A stretch of 38,599 bases of DNA from the IMG/VR virus record IMGVR_UViG_3300021962_000010, positions 1 to 38,599 of that record; one strand, given 5' to 3'. Of the stretch, positions 987 to 30,231 are shown piece after piece; position 1 is the stretch's first letter; every line of letters starts with the position of its first letter. Made by a program: the position numbers and the translations under genes. Below the pieces are notes generated by a model. That model was not told the DNA's origin. It saw only the letters and a list, made by a program, of their open reading frames with translations, and did no database searches. Origin of the DNA: a virus.

Positions 987-1008
987 GTAGCCGAAGGAGG
1001 TGTGCGGA

Positions 1009-2436
1009 ATGCGCATCGGGCTTTACGCCAGGGTGTCCACCGGCTCTGACGAGCAGGAGGCGGCGCTTGAGCAGCAGCTAGATCGGCTGCGGGCTGCGGC
1101 AGCAGGTCACGAAACGGTCGAGTTCATCGACGTGGCCTCTGGCACCAAAGACGACCGGCAACAGCTCAACGCTCTCATGGCTGCGTGCCGAGCCGGGCAG
1201 CTGGATCGGGTGATCTGCACGCGCTTGGATCGCCTGAGCCGCTCCATGGCCCACGGCGCTGAGCTGCTCAGCTACTTCAGCGCTGAGGACACGCCGAGCC
1301 TGTTGGCGCTGGATGACGCCTTGGACCTAGCCACCATCGGCGGGCGCTTGGTGGCGCGAATGCTGATCAACCTTGGCCAGGCCGAGAGCGAGCGACTCAG
1401 TGAACGGGTACGGCACGGACGGGCGTATCAGCGCAAGCAGCTAATACCGCTTGGACCGAAGGCGCCCTACGGCTACCGCTTTAACGCAGAGCGCAGCAAC
1501 TACGAGCTGGACCCTGAGACCGCCGACTCTGCCCGCTGGCTGGTGCAGCAGTTTTTGAAAGATGGACTGCTGCGACCGCTGCTGCGGCAAGCCAAGGAAC
1601 TGCCGGGTTGCCCGTGGACCAGCGTGCCAGGGATGCGCAGCTGGCTGATGAACCCGACCTTGGCGGGCTACCGGGTGTATGGGCACGACGAGAGCTACCG
1701 CGACGCCGATGGGCGGCTGAAGAAGCGACGGCTGAAGGCCGGTGTCTACAAGGAAGTGATTCCGCACGCGCATGAGCCGCTGATCACAGCGGTGGAGCAC
1801 GCCAAGGTGCAGGCGCTAATCCACGAGCACACCGACCGCAAGAGCAGCGGGTTGCTCAAGGGGTACGTGCGGGAGCTAACGAAGCTGGTCACCTGCAGCC
1901 ACTGCGGTCGGCAGATGAATTACCAGCACCATGTGCGGCTGGGACCGATCTATCTGCGCTGCGCTTATTTCCCCTGCGCCAGCGAGAAGCGCAATCGGAT
2001 CAAGGTGCAAACCGTCAAGGATGCGATCTGGGCGAAGTTGCAACAGCACAAGGAAAGGCTGCTGGCCTACGCGGTCGTGCAAAGCGGGCTGATGGCTGGC
2101 CAGCTAGATGAGGCGATTCTGCTGGAGAAGGAGATCCGCGAGCTTGAGCAGCGGCGCGATCCAGATCTCAGTGACGCCATCCTGCGCAAGCGGATGAAGC
2201 TGGAGTCAGCGGTGCAAATGCAGGGGCACCGCTTGGATGTGGAGCTGAAGGCTGGCGACATCCGCAAGGCGCTGAACGACCCGGCCTACTGGCAGCTGGT
2301 GCAGAACAACCCTGAAGCAACCCGGCGGATGTTCACCGACTGGGTAGAGCAGGTGCTGGTGCGGGATCGAGCGGTGGAAGCCGTGATGCTGCGCTTGGAC
2401 GGCTGCGGAGCTATCTCCTCCCTAGGGTTAGGCTAG
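1009..2436 (+). CDS. Large serine recombinase (phage integrase)
   Basis: A 475-aa site-specific recombinase. ATG 1009 follows AAGGAGG (994-1000) at good spacing, so it is preferred over GTG 1000. The resolvase catalytic domain starts at residue 1: IGLYARVST with nucleophile Ser10 and Arg8, then TRLDRLSR (residues 71-78) with the active-site arginines. A recombinase domain follows from about residue 145 (LGPKAPYGYRF), then a zinc ribbon near residues 297-325 (CSHCGRQM ... CAYFPC) and a coiled coil around residues 360-410. Length and order match integrases that join attP and attB without host factors. It implies a temperate lifestyle; the dyad at 940-986 is the candidate attP. Which direction it favours, and the directionality factor, cannot be told from sequence. 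Confidence 0.95.
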   Translation: MRIGLYARVSTGSDEQEAALEQQLDRLRAAAAGHETVEFIDVASGTKDDRQQLNALMAACRAGQLDRVICTRLDRLSRSMAHGAELLSYFSAEDTPSLLALDDALDLATIGGRLVARMLINLGQAESERLSERVRHGRAYQRKQLIPLGPKAPYGYRFNAERSNYELDPETADSARWLVQQFLKDGLLRPLLRQAKELPGCPWTSVPGMRSWLMNPTLAGYRVYGHDESYRDADGRLKKRRLKAGVYKEVIPHAHEPLITAVEHAKVQALIHEHTDRKSSGLLKGYVRELTKLVTCSHCGRQMNYQHHVRLGPIYLRCAYFPCASEKRNRIKVQTVKDAIWAKLQQHKERLLAYAVVQSGLMAGQLDEAILLEKEIRELEQRRDPDLSDAILRKRMKLESAVQMQGHRLDVELKAGDIRKALNDPAYWQLVQNNPEATRRMFTDWVEQVLVRDRAVEAVMLRLDGCGAISSLGLG

Positions 2437-5678: not shown

Positions 5679-5804
5679 TTGAAGAGGGTGGCAGGTAGCC
5701 AGGGCTCACGCACCACTGGCCTCACCGCAGCCTGCCGCTACGGACGCTTCGAGCCTTGTTAGAGGTCGAGCCAAAAGTTTAGCAACTTCTCCCTATTGCC
5801 GCTG
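5679..5804 (+). promoter_or_regulatory. Structured leader before the sigma factor
   Basis: This 126-bp gap has no gene. Nested inverted repeats are present: outer GGCAGG/CCTGCC (5690-5695 and 5731-5736) and inner GCCAG/CTGGC (5698-5702 and 5716-5720). No T-run follows, so a simple terminator is unlikely. A TTGTTA at 5758 is a possible -35, but no convincing -10 follows. The hairpin may separate dcd from the sigma gene or act in the leader. Confidence 0.4.
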
Positions 5805-6719
5805 ATGGCGCACCTTGCCAGTTCCGTTGACTGGATCCTCAAGCAATCCCACCGCTATCCGTTACTCACAGCAGATGAAGAGATCACCTTGGCCCGTCAG
5901 GTGCAGGACTGGCTGGCCCTCGGTGAGATCAAACGCCCGACCGTCAAACAGCGGGCGATCATCCGCAAAGGGCAACGTGCCCGCGAGCGCTTCTACCTCT
6001 CCAACATCCGCCTAGCGGTCAACTGCGCCGGGAAATACGCGGGCTGCTCCGGCACCTTGACCCTGGAAGACCTGATCCAAGAGGGTCTGCTTGGCTTGGA
6101 TTCCGCCATCAACAAGTTCGATCCGACCCTCGGCTACAAGTTCTCCACCTACAGCTACTGGTGGATTCGCCAAGGGATCATCCGCTCAATCAACAAATAC
6201 AGCCGGTTGATCCACCTGCCGACAGCGGCGAATGATTCGATCCGCAAGGCGATGGATTACATGCGGGACTACAGCCGGATTCACGGCAAGCTGCCGCCGG
6301 TGGCGGAGGTCGCTGAGGTGTGCGAGATCGGCACCAGAACCCTGCTGGCCTATCTCAATCACAACGCCAGCTTGATCAGCCTGGATTCACTGATGCCCAA
6401 CAGCAGTGAACCCAGCACTTGGATGGATGTGGTGGCTGATCAAAGCGATAACGGCCCGCAAGTGAACGACAGCGAGGTGTTGGCCGATGTGGTCTTGCGC
6501 GAAGTGAACAAGCTGCCCGAGCAGCTGCAGCGCATCGTCAAGCAGCGCTACCTCAACGGGGAAAAGCGACCGACCACCTACAAGGTCTTGGGGCAAGAGA
6601 TCGGCACCTCCCGCGAGACCGTGCGCCATCTCCATGATGAAGCGCTGAATAGCCTGCGCCTCAAGCTGGGCGATCTAAGAGGGCAAGATTACATTCAAGC
6701 TCTGCAATCCGCCGCGTAG
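5805..6719 (+). CDS. Group 2-like sigma-70 factor
   Basis: A 304-aa sigma factor from ATG 5805 (TTG 5796 would add three residues). Region 1.2 is near residues 3-35 (VDWILKQSHRYPLLTADEEI); region 2 near residues 65-125 contains NIRLAVNCAGKYAG, LTLEDLIQEGLLGL, KFDPTLGYKFSTYSYWWIRQ (regions 2.3/2.4) and SRLIHLPTA. Region 3 follows, and region 4 near residues 235-295 has ETVRHLHDEALNSLR in its helix-turn-helix. It resembles cyanobacterial group 2 factors and so should recognise near-consensus promoters, redirecting host RNA polymerase to phage genes. A phage-borne complete sigma is uncommon. It stands alone after a structured leader, converging on the small minus-strand gene at 6661. Confidence 0.92.
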   Translation: MAHLASSVDWILKQSHRYPLLTADEEITLARQVQDWLALGEIKRPTVKQRAIIRKGQRARERFYLSNIRLAVNCAGKYAGCSGTLTLEDLIQEGLLGLDSAINKFDPTLGYKFSTYSYWWIRQGIIRSINKYSRLIHLPTAANDSIRKAMDYMRDYSRIHGKLPPVAEVAEVCEIGTRTLLAYLNHNASLISLDSLMPNSSEPSTWMDVVADQSDNGPQVNDSEVLADVVLREVNKLPEQLQRIVKQRYLNGEKRPTTYKVLGQEIGTSRETVRHLHDEALNSLRLKLGDLRGQDYIQALQSAA

Positions 6720-9667: not shown

Positions 9668-10597
9668 TCAGGCGGCCACAGCGGCATTGGTGATGCCGGC
9701 CAGGCGAGCAATCGCACGGGGGTGGAACACCGCCATGCCGAGGTAGGCCTCAACGCGGATGCGGCGCACGGGCTTGGTAGGGATTTCGCCCAGATCGCGC
9801 ACACCGATGCCACCGTTGGTGATCAGGGTGGCGCCATTGACACCAGCGGCCACGCAGTACACAGAGCTGCAGAGGCTGCTGCTGCCTTGGGTCTCGTTGA
9901 AGGCGAGGATCTCAGCGCCAGCCTCGTCGTGGTCGATGTCGATGATCGGCACGCCGTTGTAGCTGTACTGCTGACGGCCCAGGGCGTCTTGGCCGTACTG
10001 CAGGTTGCCCACCGCAGAAGCCACGCGAGCAGCAGCCGACAGACGGCGGCGCAGGGCGCGGTTCATGATCAGCACCGGGTTGCCCACGGTTTCATCCACA
10101 GCGTCGATCAGCTCATCAAGAGCAGCGAGGCTGAGGCCGCCGCCGTTGGCAGCGTTGGTGATCAGCTGGGAAGAACCCGAAGGGATGCGAGCCTGCAGGC
10201 CGTCAAACTCGTTGACGTTGCTGGTGGAATCACCCTTGATCAGGGTCTTCTCCAGCTTGAGGCGGGCAGCCTTGACCTTCATCGCCACTTGAGCGGTGCG
10301 GATCTCGGGGCCTTGCATGGCCTCAAGAGCCAGGTCAATGTCCACATCACCGCCGAAGATCTTGAGGGCTTCGGACTGGGGGTTGATGATGCCGGTGGAC
10401 TCGCTGTAGGCCTCATTGACACCACGGAAGCCGATCCCAGGCAGGGTCTGCTCTTGGTTGTAATGAATGCCGGTGCCAGTCACCGACAGCTGGGGCATGG
10501 CTGCGTAGAGCTTGCCTTCGCGGAAGATTTCAACGATCCCCTGCTTGAGGGAATCCTGCCGGCCGAGTTTGCCGGCCTCAACAGTTGTGAGTGCCAC
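9668..10597 (-). CDS. Major capsid protein
   Basis: A 309-aa protein with a GTG start. Its layout is of the HK97-fold type: an N-terminal arm (ALTTVEAGKLGRQDSLKQGI), an extended stretch around the E-loop, a helical centre with RTAQVAMKVKAARLKLEKTL and LAALDELIDAVDETVG (the spine helix), then A-domain strands NPVLIMNRALRRRL, YNGVPIIDIDHDEAG and a closing VRRIRVEAYLGMAVFHPRAI. These sequence patterns recur in small phage capsid proteins of this length. It lies unusually far downstream of portal and terminase and has its own leader of about 120 bases, which contains a junction element and a GTTGGC/GCCAAC hairpin, suggesting separate, strong expression. Confidence 0.88.
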   Translation of the reverse strand: MALTTVEAGKLGRQDSLKQGIVEIFREGKLYAAMPQLSVTGTGIHYNQEQTLPGIGFRGVNEAYSESTGIINPQSEALKIFGGDVDIDLALEAMQGPEIRTAQVAMKVKAARLKLEKTLIKGDSTSNVNEFDGLQARIPSGSSQLITNAANGGGLSLAALDELIDAVDETVGNPVLIMNRALRRRLSAAARVASAVGNLQYGQDALGRQQYSYNGVPIIDIDHDEAGAEILAFNETQGSSSLCSSVYCVAAGVNGATLITNGGIGVRDLGEIPTKPVRRIRVEAYLGMAVFHPRAIARLAGITNAAVAA

Positions 10598-10718
10598 GGT
10601 CTTGTGTGGTTAGGGGTTGGCAGCTGCTGCAGGCATCGCGCCTAGGAGCAGGTGTTGGCATCGCGCCAACGCATCGGCACCACATCGCGTAGAAGCCGTG
10701 TCCTGAGTTGCCAACTGC
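10598..10718 (-). promoter_or_regulatory. Major capsid leader with junction element and hairpin
   Basis: On the minus strand GGCAACTCAGGA (10712-10701) follows the upstream stop codon by six bases. Downstream is a hairpin GTTGGC-GCGAT-GCCAAC (6-bp stem), a direct repeat of GGCGCGATGCC, and CCAACCCCTAACC about 20 bases before the GTG. No SD or clear -10/-35 pair is visible. The long leader in front of the most abundant virion protein makes regulation here likely. Confidence 0.5.
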
Positions 10719-24983: not shown

Positions 24984-24996
24984 GGCTCAAGTTGCC
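24984..24996 (-). promoter_or_regulatory. Junction element GGCAACTTGAGCC
   Basis: Includes the TGA stop of the HNH gene and lies 31 bases before the tail tube ATG. The HNH reading frame uses the element as its last codons, so the endonuclease gene has kept the element at the boundary. Confidence 0.5.
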
Positions 24997-25493
24997 TGTG
25001 GTTTTTTACCCCAACGCCTATGACGGCGGTTGTTGGCCTGCTGCCACTTATCCGCCCATCGGCAGTTCTCGGGTGAGTAGCCCAGTTCATTGTTGATGCG
25101 ATCCAAACTGCATCCTTCGGGGCGGTCGCCCATATCGAGGTAGAACTCGTCAAAGCTGTGTTGCCATGCCTGGCAGACCGTGATGCCTCTTCCGCCGTAT
25201 TCGGCAAAGTCTGGATTTTGCGGGTTGCCGCAGCGTTGCACCATGCTTAACCAACTGGTGTAAGCGCCACTGCGGCGACCCTCCATGGTCTTTGTTAGGC
25301 GGTTTGCCTCCGGACGCCAACATCCGCAGCTGCGCGTCGTGCCATGCACCACGTTGGTGGGCTGGTAGGTCTTGACGGTGCCGCAATCGCAGCGGCAGAT
25401 CAGATGGCGTCGGCCGCGAATCAGCTCCTCGGTGTAGCCGATCACAGTGAGCTGGTGGAACCGTTGACCAGTTCGATCTATCTTGCGTGGCAT
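24987..25493 (-). CDS. Free-standing HNH homing endonuclease
   Basis: A 168-aa protein from ATG 25493 (GTG 25517 adds eight residues). A zinc-binding head has CRCDCG (residues 33-38) and SCGC (55-58) and a basic loop; the centre has YTSWLSMVQRCGNP, EYGGRGITVC (98-107); the HNH core is LDRINNELGYSPENCRWA (130-147). This layout is that of YGGRGI-type HNH endonucleases, which often sit free between virion genes of phages and spread by cutting neighbour genes in related genomes. It interrupts the head-tail gene series without interrupting any gene. Confidence 0.9.
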   Translation of the reverse strand: MPRKIDRTGQRFHQLTVIGYTEELIRGRRHLICRCDCGTVKTYQPTNVVHGTTRSCGCWRPEANRLTKTMEGRRSGAYTSWLSMVQRCGNPQNPDFAEYGGRGITVCQAWQHSFDEFYLDMGDRPEGCSLDRINNELGYSPENCRWADKWQQANNRRHRRWGKKPQAT

Positions 25494-25567
25494 CGGCCTG
25501 TGGAGCAGGTTGGTCACGGATCAGGCAGTTGGCTCTGCGCTGATCCACTCCATTGTCCGAGCTGTTT

Positions 25568-25952: not shown

Positions 25953-25966
25953 GCTTAGGTTGCCCC
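25953..25966 (-). promoter_or_regulatory. Junction element GGGGCAACCTAAGC
   Basis: Overlaps the last codons and TAA of the MuF gene and lies 14 bases before ATG 25939. Confidence 0.5.
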
Positions 25967-27814
25967 TGCTGTTGGACGTGGCGGGGTCCAGAGCGGTTCC
26001 GGTGCCTGCTGCATCCCCAGCGCCTTCTCAAACGGCGTGGGTCCACTGATCGGCTGCTTGCCGGCGGCCTCCAGATCGGCCAGCACAGCAGCTCGGCTTT
26101 GGGCTTCCTCCTGTGGGTCGATCAGGCCCAGCTCTTCCCATTCGGGATCCCAGGGCGTGACGGTGCAGCGGCAGTTATGGGTAACGCAGTTGTCTACAAT
26201 GTATGCACTTGAAACAGTCGTGAAGTCATAAACAGGGATTGCCTCATGAAGCGTTTTGATCTGGACCAAGAGAACCTCATCAAGCTCTACAACTCCGGCG
26301 CCAGCGTCAAAGCACTCTCTGAGCAGTTGGGCTGCAGCAGGAATGTCATCACTAGGAGGCTCAAGCAGCTCGGGATAGCTGTTCGCGGCAGAGGAGAGGC
26401 TCAACAGCTCCGCATGGACCAACTCACGCCTGAAGGACGCAAACAGCTCACGCGCAAAGCCAATCAAGCCGCAAGAGGCCGCGTTGACAGCGAGGAGAGC
26501 CGCATCAAACGAGCTGAGACACGGTTCCATCGACAGCTCGGTATCTCCGCTTATGAGGTTGAGCTTCAGGGGATCTTGAGCAGCAAAGGGCTGACAACCA
26601 GCCTGCAACTGCCGATTGGCAAATACAACATCGACTTGGCCGTTAATGGCTGCCCCATCGCCGTGGAATTGCACGGAGGCGGATGGCACCGTTATGGGCG
26701 GCACTGGGCTCGACGCCAAAAGCGCATTGAAGACATCCTCAGCGCGGGCTGGAGTTTGCTTGAGGTGTGGCAGGTCAATGCCAGATCCTGGAATCCCGCT
26801 GAGGTGGCGAATCAAATAGTCGCCTTGGCGGAGATCCATCGCCTTGACCCATCCGCGCTGGGTGGCCATTGGATGATTGGCGGTGACGGTGACTTCGCCG
26901 TTACGCGTACCAATGGCTACGAGGTTCCCGCGATACCAAGCGCGAGTCGCCGCGATGACCGTACCGGTCGTTACAAGCGAGTCAGCTAGCACGCAATTCG
27001 GGTGCGCTGGCGCCACCACATCACCGAGCTGGTAGACCTTGCCGTGCCGTGGGGCGCAGTAACCGCAGGTGCGGCTGCTGCCGACCGCCTGCCATTGCAC
27101 CTGCTCAATGCCTTCGGCTTCGTAGCGGAGCTTGGTGCCTTCCACCATGGCCGCTGCCATCTCGGTGCGAGCGACGGTTTGAGCGCGGCTCTTGCTCAGC
27201 TCCACGCTGTTCTGCAGTGTTTTGCGCAGCTGCCGCCAGCTATCACCAGAGGCGAGGTGAAACTCCACGGCGCCGATGATCCGGCCGCGTAGATCCACAT
27301 CCACGAGGCGGTTGAGGGTGGCAAAGGCTTGGGTGCCGCGAGCACCGGCGGCGTAGTTCGCCAAGGCGTTCTGGCGTTGGGCGGCAGCGATCAAAGCGGT
27401 GGGGTTCTGCTGCGCCATGCCGGGGCCCAGCAGCAGATCGGCATCGGTGGTGGCGTTAGCGAAGACCTGAGCGGCCTGCTCAGGCGTCAGCTTGCTGGCC
27501 TCCTGCTTCACCTTGTTCAGCTCCGCCAGCGCCCAGAAGTCGGACGACACCTGCCCATCCAGCAGAGCTTGGTTGACGGTTTGCGCCAACTCAGGCGGCA
27601 GGCGCAAGGCGCTTAGCTCTTGGCCGAGCTGTTGCCTGAGGATCAGCAACCGCTGCAGCGGCATTGCGCTGCCACCGTCCAGGCTGCGCTTAAAGGCCTG
27701 CTCAATGCGCGGCTCCATTGCCCGGTAAGCACCGGTGAGGCCGTTGATGATGTCCCGCTCAAACGGGCCGAGCAGGGCATCACTGAGCTTCTCCCAGCTG
27801 TCGGCGGCCTGCAT
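25955..27814 (-). CDS. MuF-type minor head protein containing an intein
   Basis: 619 aa precursor. The N-extein (residues 1-273) is a helical minor head protein; RAQTVARTEMA (210-220) and CGYCAPRHGKVY (250-261) are MuF signatures, and the series AHPN leads directly into the intein at Cys274. The C-extein (548-619) starts CRCTV, so splicing restores the conserved HPNCRCT motif and gives a 345-aa head protein. MuF proteins help portal and capsid assembly or enter with the DNA. The ATG overlaps the portal stop (TGATG). Insertion into the most conserved motif of the host protein is typical for inteins, because imprecise loss would be harmful. Confidence 0.92.
   Translation of the reverse strand: MQAADSWEKLSDALLGPFERDIINGLTGAYRAMEPRIEQAFKRSLDGGSAMPLQRLLILRQQLGQELSALRLPPELAQTVNQALLDGQVSSDFWALAELNKVKQEASKLTPEQAAQVFANATTDADLLLGPGMAQQNPTALIAAAQRQNALANYAAGARGTQAFATLNRLVDVDLRGRIIGAVEFHLASGDSWRQLRKTLQNSVELSKSRAQTVARTEMAAAMVEGTKLRYEAEGIEQVQWQAVGSSRTCGYCAPRHGKVYQLGDVVAPAHPNCVLADSLVTTGTVIAATRAWYRGNLVAIGTRNGEVTVTANHPMATQRGWVKAMDLRQGDYLIRHLSGIPGSGIDLPHLKQTPARAEDVFNALLASSPVPPITVPSASVQFHGDGAAINGQVDVVFANRQLQAGCQPFAAQDPLKLNLISGDTELSMEPCLSSFDAALLAVNAASCGLIGFARELFASFRRELVHAELLSLSSAANSYPELLEPPSDDIPAAAQLLRECFDAGAGVVELDEVLLVQIKTLHEAIPVYDFTTVSSAYIVDNCVTHNCRCTVTPWDPEWEELGLIDPQEEAQSRAAVLADLEAAGKQPISGPTPFEKALGMQQAPEPLWTPPRPTAGAT
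26195..26238 (+). promoter_or_regulatory. Possible promoter and SD for the antisense endonuclease
   Basis: Inside the intein C-terminal coding region, TACAAT (26195-26200) is a -10-like box and AGGGA (26234-26238) an SD seven bases before the ATG at 26246. No good -35 is seen. If functional, the signals travel with the intein. Confidence 0.35.
26246..26989 (+). CDS. HTH plus Vsr/DUF559-like endonuclease, antisense within the intein
   Basis: 247 aa on the strand opposite the intein. Residues 8-45 are a resolvase-like helix-turn-helix (NLIKLYNSGASVKALSEQLG, CSRNVITRRLKQLGI). Residues 90-180 are a PD-(D/E)XK-type nuclease of the Vsr/DUF559/EDxHD group: Glu106 region, KYNID with Asp130, PIAVELHGGGWH with Glu141, His143 and His148, then RRQKRIEDILSAGWSLLEVW. 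Such proteins act as homing endonucleases beside split inteins and introns. Codons align exactly with those of the intein; accordingly this gene uses no TTA, CTA or TCA codon, whose complements would be stops in the intein. Its TAG stop lies opposite the CTA codon of intein Leu3. It is thus wholly contained in the intein and would move with it. The last 40 residues, opposite intein blocks A and B, are probably unstructured. Confidence 0.85.
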   Translation: MKRFDLDQENLIKLYNSGASVKALSEQLGCSRNVITRRLKQLGIAVRGRGEAQQLRMDQLTPEGRKQLTRKANQAARGRVDSEESRIKRAETRFHRQLGISAYEVELQGILSSKGLTTSLQLPIGKYNIDLAVNGCPIAVELHGGGWHRYGRHWARRQKRIEDILSAGWSLLEVWQVNARSWNPAEVANQIVALAEIHRLDPSALGGHWMIGGDGDFAVTRTNGYEVPAIPSASRRDDRTGRYKRVS

Positions 27815-29289
27815 CAGCTACCAGGCTGCAGGGCCTGCGGGGGCAGCATGACGTTCTGCTCCAGCAGTAGGCGATCCCGCTCCAGCTGCGCCTGCAGTTG
27901 CTGTTGATCGCTGCCATCCAAGCCGAGCACCTCGGCTTCTACATCGAAGTCAATGGGCAGCACACCACCGCGTTGCAGCAGTTCGAGGGTGGTTTCTTTG
28001 CTGATGTAGCCGCCATCAGCGAGGCTCTGGATCTGCGCCACCTGCTGCGGCTCCAGCTTGGCTTCTAAGGCCTGTGCCGCAATCTGCAGCACACCAGTGG
28101 GCTCCTCGCCGGTGTAGGCGACCCAGAGCATCTGCAGCTGCTCAAACAGGCTGCTCTTCTGCATTCCGGCCAGCGCCAGGCCGCTTTGCACCTGACCGGC
28201 CTGCAACCGGGCTTGGGTGGCGGTGACGGCCTCCTGGCCGCTCATGAACGCCAGCGTCTCGTTATTGATCAGCTGCTCGATGTGGCGCAGGTGTTCCTGC
28301 TGCTGCTGCAGGCTGCTGCCGGAGGGTTCCGCAAAACGGAAGTCGCCATCGACCGGCACATCCACCACGCTGTTGGGGCCGATCACCAGCGGCGGTGGGG
28401 TTTGGCCATCCATCAACAGCGCACCACGGCGCACCGGCACCGGCAGGGCGCAGCGGTGCAGCAGCTCGTTGAGATCAGAGCGGCTGCGGTAGTGCTGCAG
28501 CGTGAGCAGGGCCAGCTCGCGGAAGGGTGGCAGGCCATGACCCCAGCGCTGCGGCTGCGGGCTGTACCAAACCAGCGGCACCTCGCTCAGGCTGGTAAAG
28601 CCTTCCTCCACCAGCTGCAGCTTGGTGGTGGCACCGAGCTGTTTGTTCAGCGCATAGACCTGAAAGGCACCAGGGGTGAGCACGCGGAAGAACGGCTCGA
28701 CGGTGAAGCCAAAGCTGCCGGCTTCCACCTCACGCCATTCGAGCAGCGTGGCCTGCACCAGCTGCTCTTGACCGGCGATGTATTCAGTCTTCCAGTTGAG
28801 GATGTTGCGGCGCTCCAGCAGCACCAGATAGGGCTGACGACCAAAGGCCAAGCGGTCGGCCTCAGATTCCACCGCCACCTGCTGCGGCATTTCAACCATG
28901 ACGGCGCAACCGCCATCGCGCATGGCGAGGCTGTCGGCCATGGCCATGAAGGCCGTCAGGTTGTTGCCCAGCTGATCAATGTCGTCAAGCTGCTGCTCCA
29001 GCGAGGCGGGCAGGTCGGAGAGGGTGAACTGCGAGAGGATGCCGCTCATGGCCTCAATGGCCTTGCGGAAGCTGGGCACGTAGGTGGCCCGCGCTAGGCG
29101 ATTGCGATAGGCCCGGTCAGGCTCCTTGGTTTCCTGCGGCAGGTAGGTGGCTTCGCTACCGCGCAGGCCCAGCCAGCAGTCACCTAAGAGCTGCAGATCG
29201 GGCTCAATGTCCCGCAGGACCGGATGCTTCCAGGTCGGCAGGTTGGGCGCATCGAAGAGATCGCCGTCAATGGCAGGCCTGCCGTCCAT
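27814..29289 (-). CDS. Portal protein (DUF4055-like)
   Basis: 491 aa. Upstream is the junction element GGCAATTTCAGGC and an A-rich leader before the ATG. The N-terminal region (TWKHPVLRDIEPDLQLLGDC, RNRLARATYVPSFRKAIEAM) and the centre (SLAMRDGGCAVMVEMPQQ; PYLVLLERRNILNWKTEYIA) follow the pattern of DUF4055 portals, and the C-terminal half has the long helix of the portal stem/crown (SSLQQQQEHLRHIEQLINN) with LFEQLQMLWVAYTGEEPTG. The dodecameric portal is the DNA gate and docks the terminase. It is directly followed by MuF. Confidence 0.85.
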   Translation of the reverse strand: MDGRPAIDGDLFDAPNLPTWKHPVLRDIEPDLQLLGDCWLGLRGSEATYLPQETKEPDRAYRNRLARATYVPSFRKAIEAMSGILSQFTLSDLPASLEQQLDDIDQLGNNLTAFMAMADSLAMRDGGCAVMVEMPQQVAVESEADRLAFGRQPYLVLLERRNILNWKTEYIAGQEQLVQATLLEWREVEAGSFGFTVEPFFRVLTPGAFQVYALNKQLGATTKLQLVEEGFTSLSEVPLVWYSPQPQRWGHGLPPFRELALLTLQHYRSRSDLNELLHRCALPVPVRRGALLMDGQTPPPLVIGPNSVVDVPVDGDFRFAEPSGSSLQQQQEHLRHIEQLINNETLAFMSGQEAVTATQARLQAGQVQSGLALAGMQKSSLFEQLQMLWVAYTGEEPTGVLQIAAQALEAKLEPQQVAQIQSLADGGYISKETTLELLQRGGVLPIDFDVEAEVLGLDGSDQQQLQAQLERDRLLLEQNVMLPPQALQPGS

Positions 29290-29607: not shown

Positions 29608-30231
29608 CTAGAGCCAGCCAGCATCCATCTGATCGTCGGCGGAGTGCAGCTCAAAGCCGCCTAGTTCATGCCCCATGCCGGCGGTGGCGCGTAGGTCCAG
29701 CTTCAGGTCTTCGGCGCTGATGCCGAGCTTTTGGCACACCACATCTGGTGTATCACCACGCTCTAGGAGCCGCCGGGCGTGCATCCCGCGCTGGCGCACC
29801 GCACCTGGCGCCTTTAGCCAGAAGTTGTGGTCGCGGATGTAGTGGCGCCACTCGCCAAGGATGAAGGGCAGGGCGATGGTGGAGAACTTGTAGCCGGTGG
29901 TCGGGTCGTATTTGCGCACGGCCTTGAGTAGGCCGATCAGGCCCAGGCTGTAGAGGTCTTCGATCTCAATGCACTTGTACTTGTGGTGTTGCTGCTTGAT
30001 GATCAGCTTGAGCAGGGGGATGTGCTGCTGCACCATGCGCTCCTCCTTGCGGCGCTGACGCGGGCAGGTCTCGCGGTAGAGCAGGGTTTTGGGCCGGGTG
30101 CTCTTCGGCTTGCGCGGCGGCAGAACAGCAGTAGGAAGCGCTGCGGGCTGCCAAGGGCCATCCGAGAGGAGCTGAAAGCTCAGCTGGCCTTCACACTGCT
30201 TGCGCTTGTTAGGGCTAGCCATGGTCACCAT
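29608..30231 (-). CDS. Alternative sigma factor, SigF-like, lacking region 4
   Basis: 207 aa starting at ATG 30231 in the end of terL (ATG 30222 is an alternative). After a basic, Pro-rich head (1-55) comes region 2: ERMVQQHIPLLKLIIKQQHH, IEIEDLYSLGLIGLLKAVRK, YDPTTGYKFSTIALPFILGE and WRHYIRDHNFWLKAPGAVRQ. That YDPxxGxKFSTxAxPxIxGE(I/W) pattern is SigF/SigB/WhiG-like. Residues 150-185 (LLERGDTPDVVCQKLGISAE) may be region 3. Nothing like region 4 follows; the protein ends after a short acidic tail. It lies between terL and portal, so it is probably a late-gene factor. With the factor at 5805 this phage has two sigmas. Confidence 0.85.
   Translation of the reverse strand: MVTMASPNKRKQCEGQLSFQLLSDGPWQPAALPTAVLPPRKPKSTRPKTLLYRETCPRQRRKEERMVQQHIPLLKLIIKQQHHKYKCIEIEDLYSLGLIGLLKAVRKYDPTTGYKFSTIALPFILGEWRHYIRDHNFWLKAPGAVRQRGMHARRLLERGDTPDVVCQKLGISAEDLKLDLRATAGMGHELGGFELHSADDQMDAGWL

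Follow-up and report, generated by a model that had tools for sequence, protein, structure and literature searches.

A phage MuF intein with a nuclease gene nested antisense, codon opposite codon

The MuF-type head gene of a phage (IMG/VR virus record IMGVR_UViG_3300021962_000010; the whole stretch of 38,599 nucleotides analysed is called the window) carries what is very likely a mobile intein with a homing endonuclease that is translated separately, from a complete antisense gene nested codon opposite codon within the intein; expression, splicing and cleavage are inferred. Direct observation extends to two open and conserved frames, purifying selection on the nuclease, its start signals, the mobility of the element and the existence of empty sites. 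The features concerned were located in the window as follows.

25955..27814, minus strand: MuF-type head morphogenesis ORF of 619 aa, uninterrupted, with the in-frame intein inside (ORF list and profiles)
26996-27814, minus strand: N-extein of MuF
25955-26173, minus strand: C-extein of MuF
26174..26995, minus strand: intein of 274 aa, Cys1 to His-Asn/Cys+1, between HPN and CRC (sequence, profile and AlphaFold)
26873..26884, minus strand: intein block B T-A-N-H (residues 38-41), overlapped by the C-terminal tail of the nuclease
26246..26989, plus strand: nuclease gene of 247 aa plus TAG, with a helix-turn-helix (HTH) and a Vsr/DUF559-like catalytic domain, in codon register opposite the intein
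26234..26238, plus strand: AGGGA, a Shine-Dalgarno-like site 7 nt 5' of the nuclease ATG (sequence)
26267..26404, plus strand: helix-turn-helix of the nuclease, residues 8-53 (HTH_58 1.7e-5, above the Pfam gathering score)
26555..26668, plus strand: catalytic core of the nuclease, with E104 (26555), Y127-N128, D130 (26633) and E141 (26666) (conservation)
26654..26668, minus strand: intein F-H-G-D-G (residues 110-114), opposite nuclease P-I-A-V-E (137-141) (codon conservation)

The MuF gene and its intein

The MuF ORF matched Pfam Phage_Mu_F (2e-12) and TIGR01641 (7.7e-14) in the profile search, and relatives without an intein aligned to its exteins as a single piece. The intein comprises MuF residues 274-547 and includes Cys1, the block B motif, V-Y-D-F at block F and H-N followed by Cys+1, with C1 and H41 being invariant in a 69-row intein alignment. 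A profile of the relatives' inteins matched PI-MtuI, DnaB and other inteins in the PDB. The Hint fold was present in the AlphaFold model, where pLDDT was at least 90 at intein residues 1-60 and 241-274, and the best Foldseek matches of this model among solved structures were inteins. Residues 82-127, which include FHGDG, were modelled with moderate confidence and residues 130-219 were poorly modelled and mostly unstructured; the input alignments for AlphaFold left out rows from annotated phages. Self-splicing is inferred from the intact catalytic blocks in the absence of splicing data.

No LAGLIDADG or other nuclease was found when the intein frame was searched against Pfam, and no nuclease family was matched in this frame by Pfam, other profile or PDB-profile searches, so the element does not qualify as an intein with an in-frame endonuclease domain. 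The FHGDG segment was considered as a LAGLIDADG block, which its GDG resembles, and was rejected for want of any profile support. Nor does the element qualify as a split intein, as the window holds one contiguous ORF and the N and C blocks lay on one ORF in nearly all of 244 related loci.

The antisense nuclease gene

The two frames have common codon boundaries, with intein first positions facing nuclease third positions. The earlier note, made from the letters alone, had described a complete minus-strand intein between HPN and CRC, a plus-strand ORF of 247 aa with an AGGGA Shine-Dalgarno site and a TAG stop that faces the CTA of intein residue 3, and an exact register in which FHGDG faces PIAVE and intein VDVVF faces nuclease KYNID; all of these coordinates and pairings proved correct.

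Searched as a single sequence against Pfam, the nuclease matched MTES_1575 (1.4e-8), just below the gathering score, and its DUF559 match was weaker than those to MTES_1575 and HTH_58. A single-sequence search of the PDB was uninformative and the matches came from a profile of 76 relatives, which detected DUF559-like 3hrl (8.2e-7), I-Bth0305I (3r3p, ‘mobile intron protein’, 4.8e-6) and, weakly, Vsr. The AlphaFold model of the nuclease had a mean pLDDT of 88, and its top folds by Foldseek were Vsr (1vsr, prob 1.00), I-Bth0305I (0.99) and 3hrl (0.98), with E-values that were only modest (0.004-0.03). D130 and E141 were invariant in the 76 sequences, E104, Y127 and N128 were conserved at 90% or more and R160 was nearly invariant. 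Relative to the EDxHD pattern, E104, D130 and E141 were conserved and H148 was frequent, although residue-for-residue equivalence to I-Bth0305I was not established. On this profile and fold similarity the antisense ORF belongs with the Vsr-like/EDxHD nuclease superfamily, and the HTH plus Vsr/DUF559-like identity proposed in the earlier note agrees with the nuclease profiles (MTES_1575, HTH_58 and I-Bth0305I) and folds.

Conservation of the arrangement in relatives

A tblastn search with the nuclease matched 122 phage records. In the annotated regions examined the nuclease lay opposite a MuF-type head gene or another minor capsid gene with three exceptions. In two of these the gene opposite encodes a deaminase or a 1,103-aa protein with the annotation capsid maturation protease, and in the third (L024) the nuclease gene is free-standing. 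These matches were combined with scans of IMG/VR and of genomes to give 245 loci, all collected by nuclease similarity, with a single genome scan contributing 2 of them; the contig scans used sub-alignments, the pan-family nuclease alignment being too divergent.

The codon-opposite-codon antisense frame was free of stops across the nuclease domain in 244 of the 245 loci, and this held down to 35% G+C, while the other two antisense registers were open in none (0/245). An antisense ORF in the same phase was thus borne out in related inteins, where antisense stops would have counted against the proposal of the earlier note. Of the minus-strand ORFs at the 244 loci, 243 contained the intein N block, 240 its C block and 231 MuF. 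Both ends of the intein were located at 234 loci, which yielded 163 distinct inteins at 90% identity and 102 at 40%, over a G+C range of 35-72%. When the search was seeded with the intein, the full antisense nuclease was present in 79 of 80 loci and the remaining one was cut by the contig end; the inteins of Aaphi23 and fEg-Eco06 carry it although these phages were absent from the nuclease tblastn listing. Other host genes of inteins with the antisense nuclease encode a dCMP deaminase, a VG15 protein and Phage_min_cap2.

The nuclease occurs almost only inside inteins. The single exception among the 245 loci was Acinetobacter phage P1068 (L024), in which it is free-standing just beyond MuF and has 10 antisense stops, and this locus is a natural control for antisense openness. 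The P1068 nuclease (L024:1830-2723) had no intein match, and its C-terminal tail still aligned with the part that overlaps intein block B in other loci, an alignment hinting at possible descent from an antisense form.

Several variants were seen among the relatives. The dCMP deaminase-like gene (L020:616-1968, Pfam 5e-11), annotated as a head morphogenesis protein, carries an antisense-nuclease intein. In Escherichia phage fEg-Eco06 (L331:436-2427) such an intein lies at a different MuF site, before CRARDGMAW, which represents a second insertion point. The intein of Rhodococcus phage REQ3 (L023:1578-3356) starts with Ala rather than Cys1 (HPN/A) and its nuclease is without most of the HTH part; this intein is possibly decaying or of an Ala1 type. 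Inteins fell into size classes of about 270 and about 320 aa (L009, L018, L021, L022, L024, L026), and the longer ones had an extra N-terminal HTH in the antisense nuclease.

Antisense coding versus a G+C shadow

The open frame in this window alone is weak evidence for a gene. The earlier note had pointed to the absence of TTA, CTA and TCA codons from the nuclease gene, which is true but not diagnostic in one G+C-rich window, and the N-extein also contains only 2 such codons in 274. The antisense ORF could on that basis be a non-coding shadow of the rarity of these Leu and Ser codons in G+C-rich genes, a reading helped by a 303-aa antisense ORF opposite the portal gene (28186-29097, plus strand) and by antisense runs of at least 220 codons in 33% of the long N-exteins of relatives. 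Another antisense ORF lies opposite the major head gene (9722-10645, plus strand), and both of these long ORFs are probably G+C shadows. Antisense ORF length and the missing TTA, CTA and TCA codons were rejected as stand-alone evidence, as the exteins of the window and of G+C-rich relatives are alike in these respects.

The antisense gene is lifted above chance by the nuclease profile, by openness in 244 of 245 relatives and by the selection tests. The 40,986 overlap codons of the 163 distinct inteins contained no antisense stop, compared to 1,244 among 69,635 codons of the exteins; from the intein residues and extein codon usage, about 1,136 stops were expected in the nuclease frame. At loci below 42% G+C, 11 distinct inteins had no antisense stops whereas their exteins had 5.9 per 100. 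These counts, with the profile and fold matches and the dN/dS and start-codon bias reported below, refute the shadow reading for the family and leave it barely credible overall.

Selection on both strands

The codons of intein and nuclease coincide, which allows each change to be assigned a class in both frames at once. Substitution rates by position were obtained from 57 disjoint pairs. In the intein middle the rates at intein positions 1, 2 and 3 were 0.392, 0.175 and 0.269, and the nuclease wobble position was the most variable in 56 of the 57 pairs. In the exteins the corresponding rates were 0.321, 0.269 and 0.530, the ordinary pattern being seen in 55/57 pairs, and the intein C block resembled the exteins (51 pairs versus 1).

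The overlap-aware dN/dS of the nuclease was 0.22 [0.19-0.25] in the intein middle, far below the 0.80 and 0.90 of the same antisense frame opposite exteins; a value no lower than that opposite other genes would have counted against the earlier note. The intein frame had a dN/dS of 0.51 in the middle versus 0.20 in the intein N domain, which shows that the intein frame is also constrained in the middle relative to the shadow level of 0.80-0.90. Taken together with the position-wise rates, these values indicate that the nuclease prevails in the middle and the intein in the splicing blocks.

Within the catalytic core, the wobble bases of nuclease P/V-A-V-E were nearly fixed (GTC 103/103, GCC 151/158, GTG 145/148, GAA 133/161) while nuclease alanines and glycines elsewhere used all four wobble bases. 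The locked wobble bases can be explained by the intein residues FHGDG and cannot be explained by the nuclease. As these codons are locked at all three positions, both proteins appear to be constrained at this motif, the role of FHGDG being unknown. The prediction of the earlier note that selection on the other strand accounts for the intein middle therefore stands for the low dN/dS of the nuclease and fails in its exclusive form, given the constraint on the intein frame and the locked FHGDG wobble bases. We propose that the intein middle is for the most part open only as a by-product of the nuclease code, with the exception of the FHGDG segment and the splicing blocks. A stronger statement, that this is a distinct class of mobile intein with two functional proteins codon opposite codon, in which P/V-A-V-E and a functional F-H-G-D-G share the locked codons, is one we favour only slightly over its denial.

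In another reading, which is highly unlikely, homing would be the work of an endonuclease of unknown kind encoded by the sense-strand middle with its FHGDG segment, and the antisense ORF would be a relic. The conservation of FHGDG beyond the needs of the nuclease, and the moderate confidence of the model in this segment, could be read in that way, but the middle is under weaker constraint in the intein frame than in the nuclease frame (0.51 vs 0.22), most of its latter part is unstructured in the model and the frame matches no nuclease family.

Translation start of the nuclease

In intein block F, the choice among synonymous codons favours those that create the ATG and Shine-Dalgarno site of the nuclease. 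The block F His codon was CAT in 98 of 111 inteins versus 776 of 1,761 His codons elsewhere (p 4e-21), and the Leu four residues after it was CTC in 76 of 102 compared to 26% elsewhere (p 7e-24). Both choices are silent in the intein and provide ATG and GAGG on the opposite strand. Shine-Dalgarno-like sites were found 5' of 91 of the 111 block F starts versus about 7% of control positions. The nuclease of the window starts a few codons further on, at the CAT of ...LHEAIPVYDF, and the start codon was less clear in a minority of relatives. A scan of the plus strand upstream of the nuclease gave no sigma-70-like promoter.

Mobility of the element

Intein-free MuF genes were common; one of them, that of FSL SP-101, shares 98% identity with the spliced form of an occupied MuF. 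Between Salmonella phage CTH7 and E. coli phage Snoke the extein DNA is only 64% alike 300-700 bp upstream of the site and the intein proteins are 94% alike, with identity climbing to 0.82-0.87 in the 45 bp on each side of the insertion site. The upstream exteins of vB_STM-ZS and SaI_NFG_5577 are 96% alike and their inteins 69% alike, and in Gordonia phages Vivi2 and Angelicage the N-exteins are identical while the inteins are 78% alike. This incongruence between inteins and exteins indicates that the element moves independently of the host gene; with presence and absence at one site and extein-independent transfer, the relatives qualify as mobile inteins.

A clean co-conversion tract in one empty/occupied pair (0.77 identity within 30 bp) was considered and rejected, as identity dropped there in some pairs of empty alleles too, and only the CTH7/Snoke rise and the intein-extein incongruence were therefore retained. 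Two loci (L237 and L238) had a truncated nuclease ORF (177 aa) and kept both intein ends, and judging from their sequences they are candidates for a degenerate stage of the homing cycle, in line with the prediction of that cycle.

Proposed mechanism and function of the nuclease

The antisense nuclease was the sole recognisable endonuclease in the element. That it drives homing is an inference supported by the mobility of the element, without cleavage data. In the proposed cycle MuF would be translated whole and the intein would splice itself out, while on the plus strand ribosomes would start at the ATG opposite block F, or at a nearby codon, to produce the HTH and Vsr-like nuclease. The nuclease would then cleave MuF alleles without an intein at the conserved HPN/CRC site, and repair from an occupied copy would insert the intein and the antisense gene together. 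Plus-strand transcription, splicing, HPN/CRC cleavage and repair-mediated copying are inferred, there being no transcript, protein, splicing or cleavage data. As to origin, it is plausible, with no test made, that a nuclease gene was inserted in reverse into a mini-intein between blocks B and F, and that the tail and start of the nuclease later came to overprint the splicing blocks.

The nuclease might instead be real and have another role, such as repair, defence or host take-over, and merely travel in the intein. Cleavage data are lacking, and Vsr repair enzymes and DUF559 proteins belong to the same nuclease family, which leaves room for such a role; we consider it unlikely, however, as the closest solved relatives include a homing endonuclease, the element moves by itself into one conserved site with no other recognisable endonuclease in the intein frame, and the nuclease is almost confined to inteins.

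Comparison with known systems

Some group I introns carry antisense homing endonuclease genes. These similarly place the nuclease gene opposite the host transcript, but the strand overlapped is a ribozyme RNA rather than a protein frame that needs to remain open and to fold. Dassa et al. in 2009 reportedly described split inteins in which a free-standing Vsr-like gene separates the two halves. Such inteins likewise tie a Vsr/EDxHD-type nuclease to a phage intein, whereas the present intein is a contiguous ORF and its nuclease is fully overlapping and antisense.

Known inteins carry the nuclease as an in-frame domain that is translated as a fusion (PMC3943268). Inteins of this type (PI-SceI, PI-MtuI) share with the present element the canonical splicing blocks, a conserved site in an essential gene and spread between alleles, but have the nuclease in the intein polypeptide, whereas the present nuclease is encoded as a protein of its own on the other strand. 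A group I intron of a phage encodes the EDxHD homing endonuclease I-Bth0305I (PDB 3r3p; PMC3943268), whose catalytic domain is homologous according to the profile (4.8e-6) and fold (prob 0.99) matches; the nuclease studied here differs in being fused to an HTH and antisense to a protein-splicing element.

In phage methylases, the ShiLan domain and the Pacc40 insertion conceal out-of-frame HNH genes (PMC11855218, 2025). They also represent a homing-type nuclease gene that overlaps an open host frame in phages and spreads horizontally. They differ in a same-strand alternative frame (ShiLan), in being HNH, in having no detectable splicing element and in that no ribosome-binding site was found (PMC11855218). 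By analogy, the ShiLan domain may be regarded as the nearest published relative in spirit.

Annotated MuF inteins (Escherichia phage Snoke, MK931441; fEg-Eco06, PQ141284) are the same inteins with only the sense frame annotated. No antisense or opposite-strand endonuclease in inteins was found in the searchable literature, which leaves out most subscription papers and preprints, and prior notice is not excluded. We file the arrangement as a new architecture of mobile intein; inteins would then have a third means of carrying a homing endonuclease, in addition to the in-frame domain and the separate adjacent gene. The arrangement accounts for large phage MuF inteins with an unmatched middle, where gene callers annotate a single strand. 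The 102 inteins at 40% identity are a large natural data set on long antisense overlapping genes, a debated subject, with the non-overlapped exteins as usable controls, and because the intein and nuclease products both have simple assays the overlap is directly testable. The FHGDG/VAVE dual lock gives concrete form to the question of whether two functional proteins can be encoded in a single double strand and, if true, would be a conserved instance from nature of two proteins coded on complementary strands.

Other genes in the window

An HNH endonuclease gene (24987-25517, minus strand; phrog_374, 5.6e-55) is located a few genes downstream of MuF and, from its profile match, is a putative second homing-type nuclease in the same head region. 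Two sigma-70-type genes (phrog_351) were identified at 29608-30231 (minus strand) and 5796-6719 (plus strand), the former with a match to region 2 only in Pfam. A large serine integrase is encoded at 1000-2436 (plus strand; phrog_95, Resolvase 2.6e-28), and the phage is therefore probably temperate.
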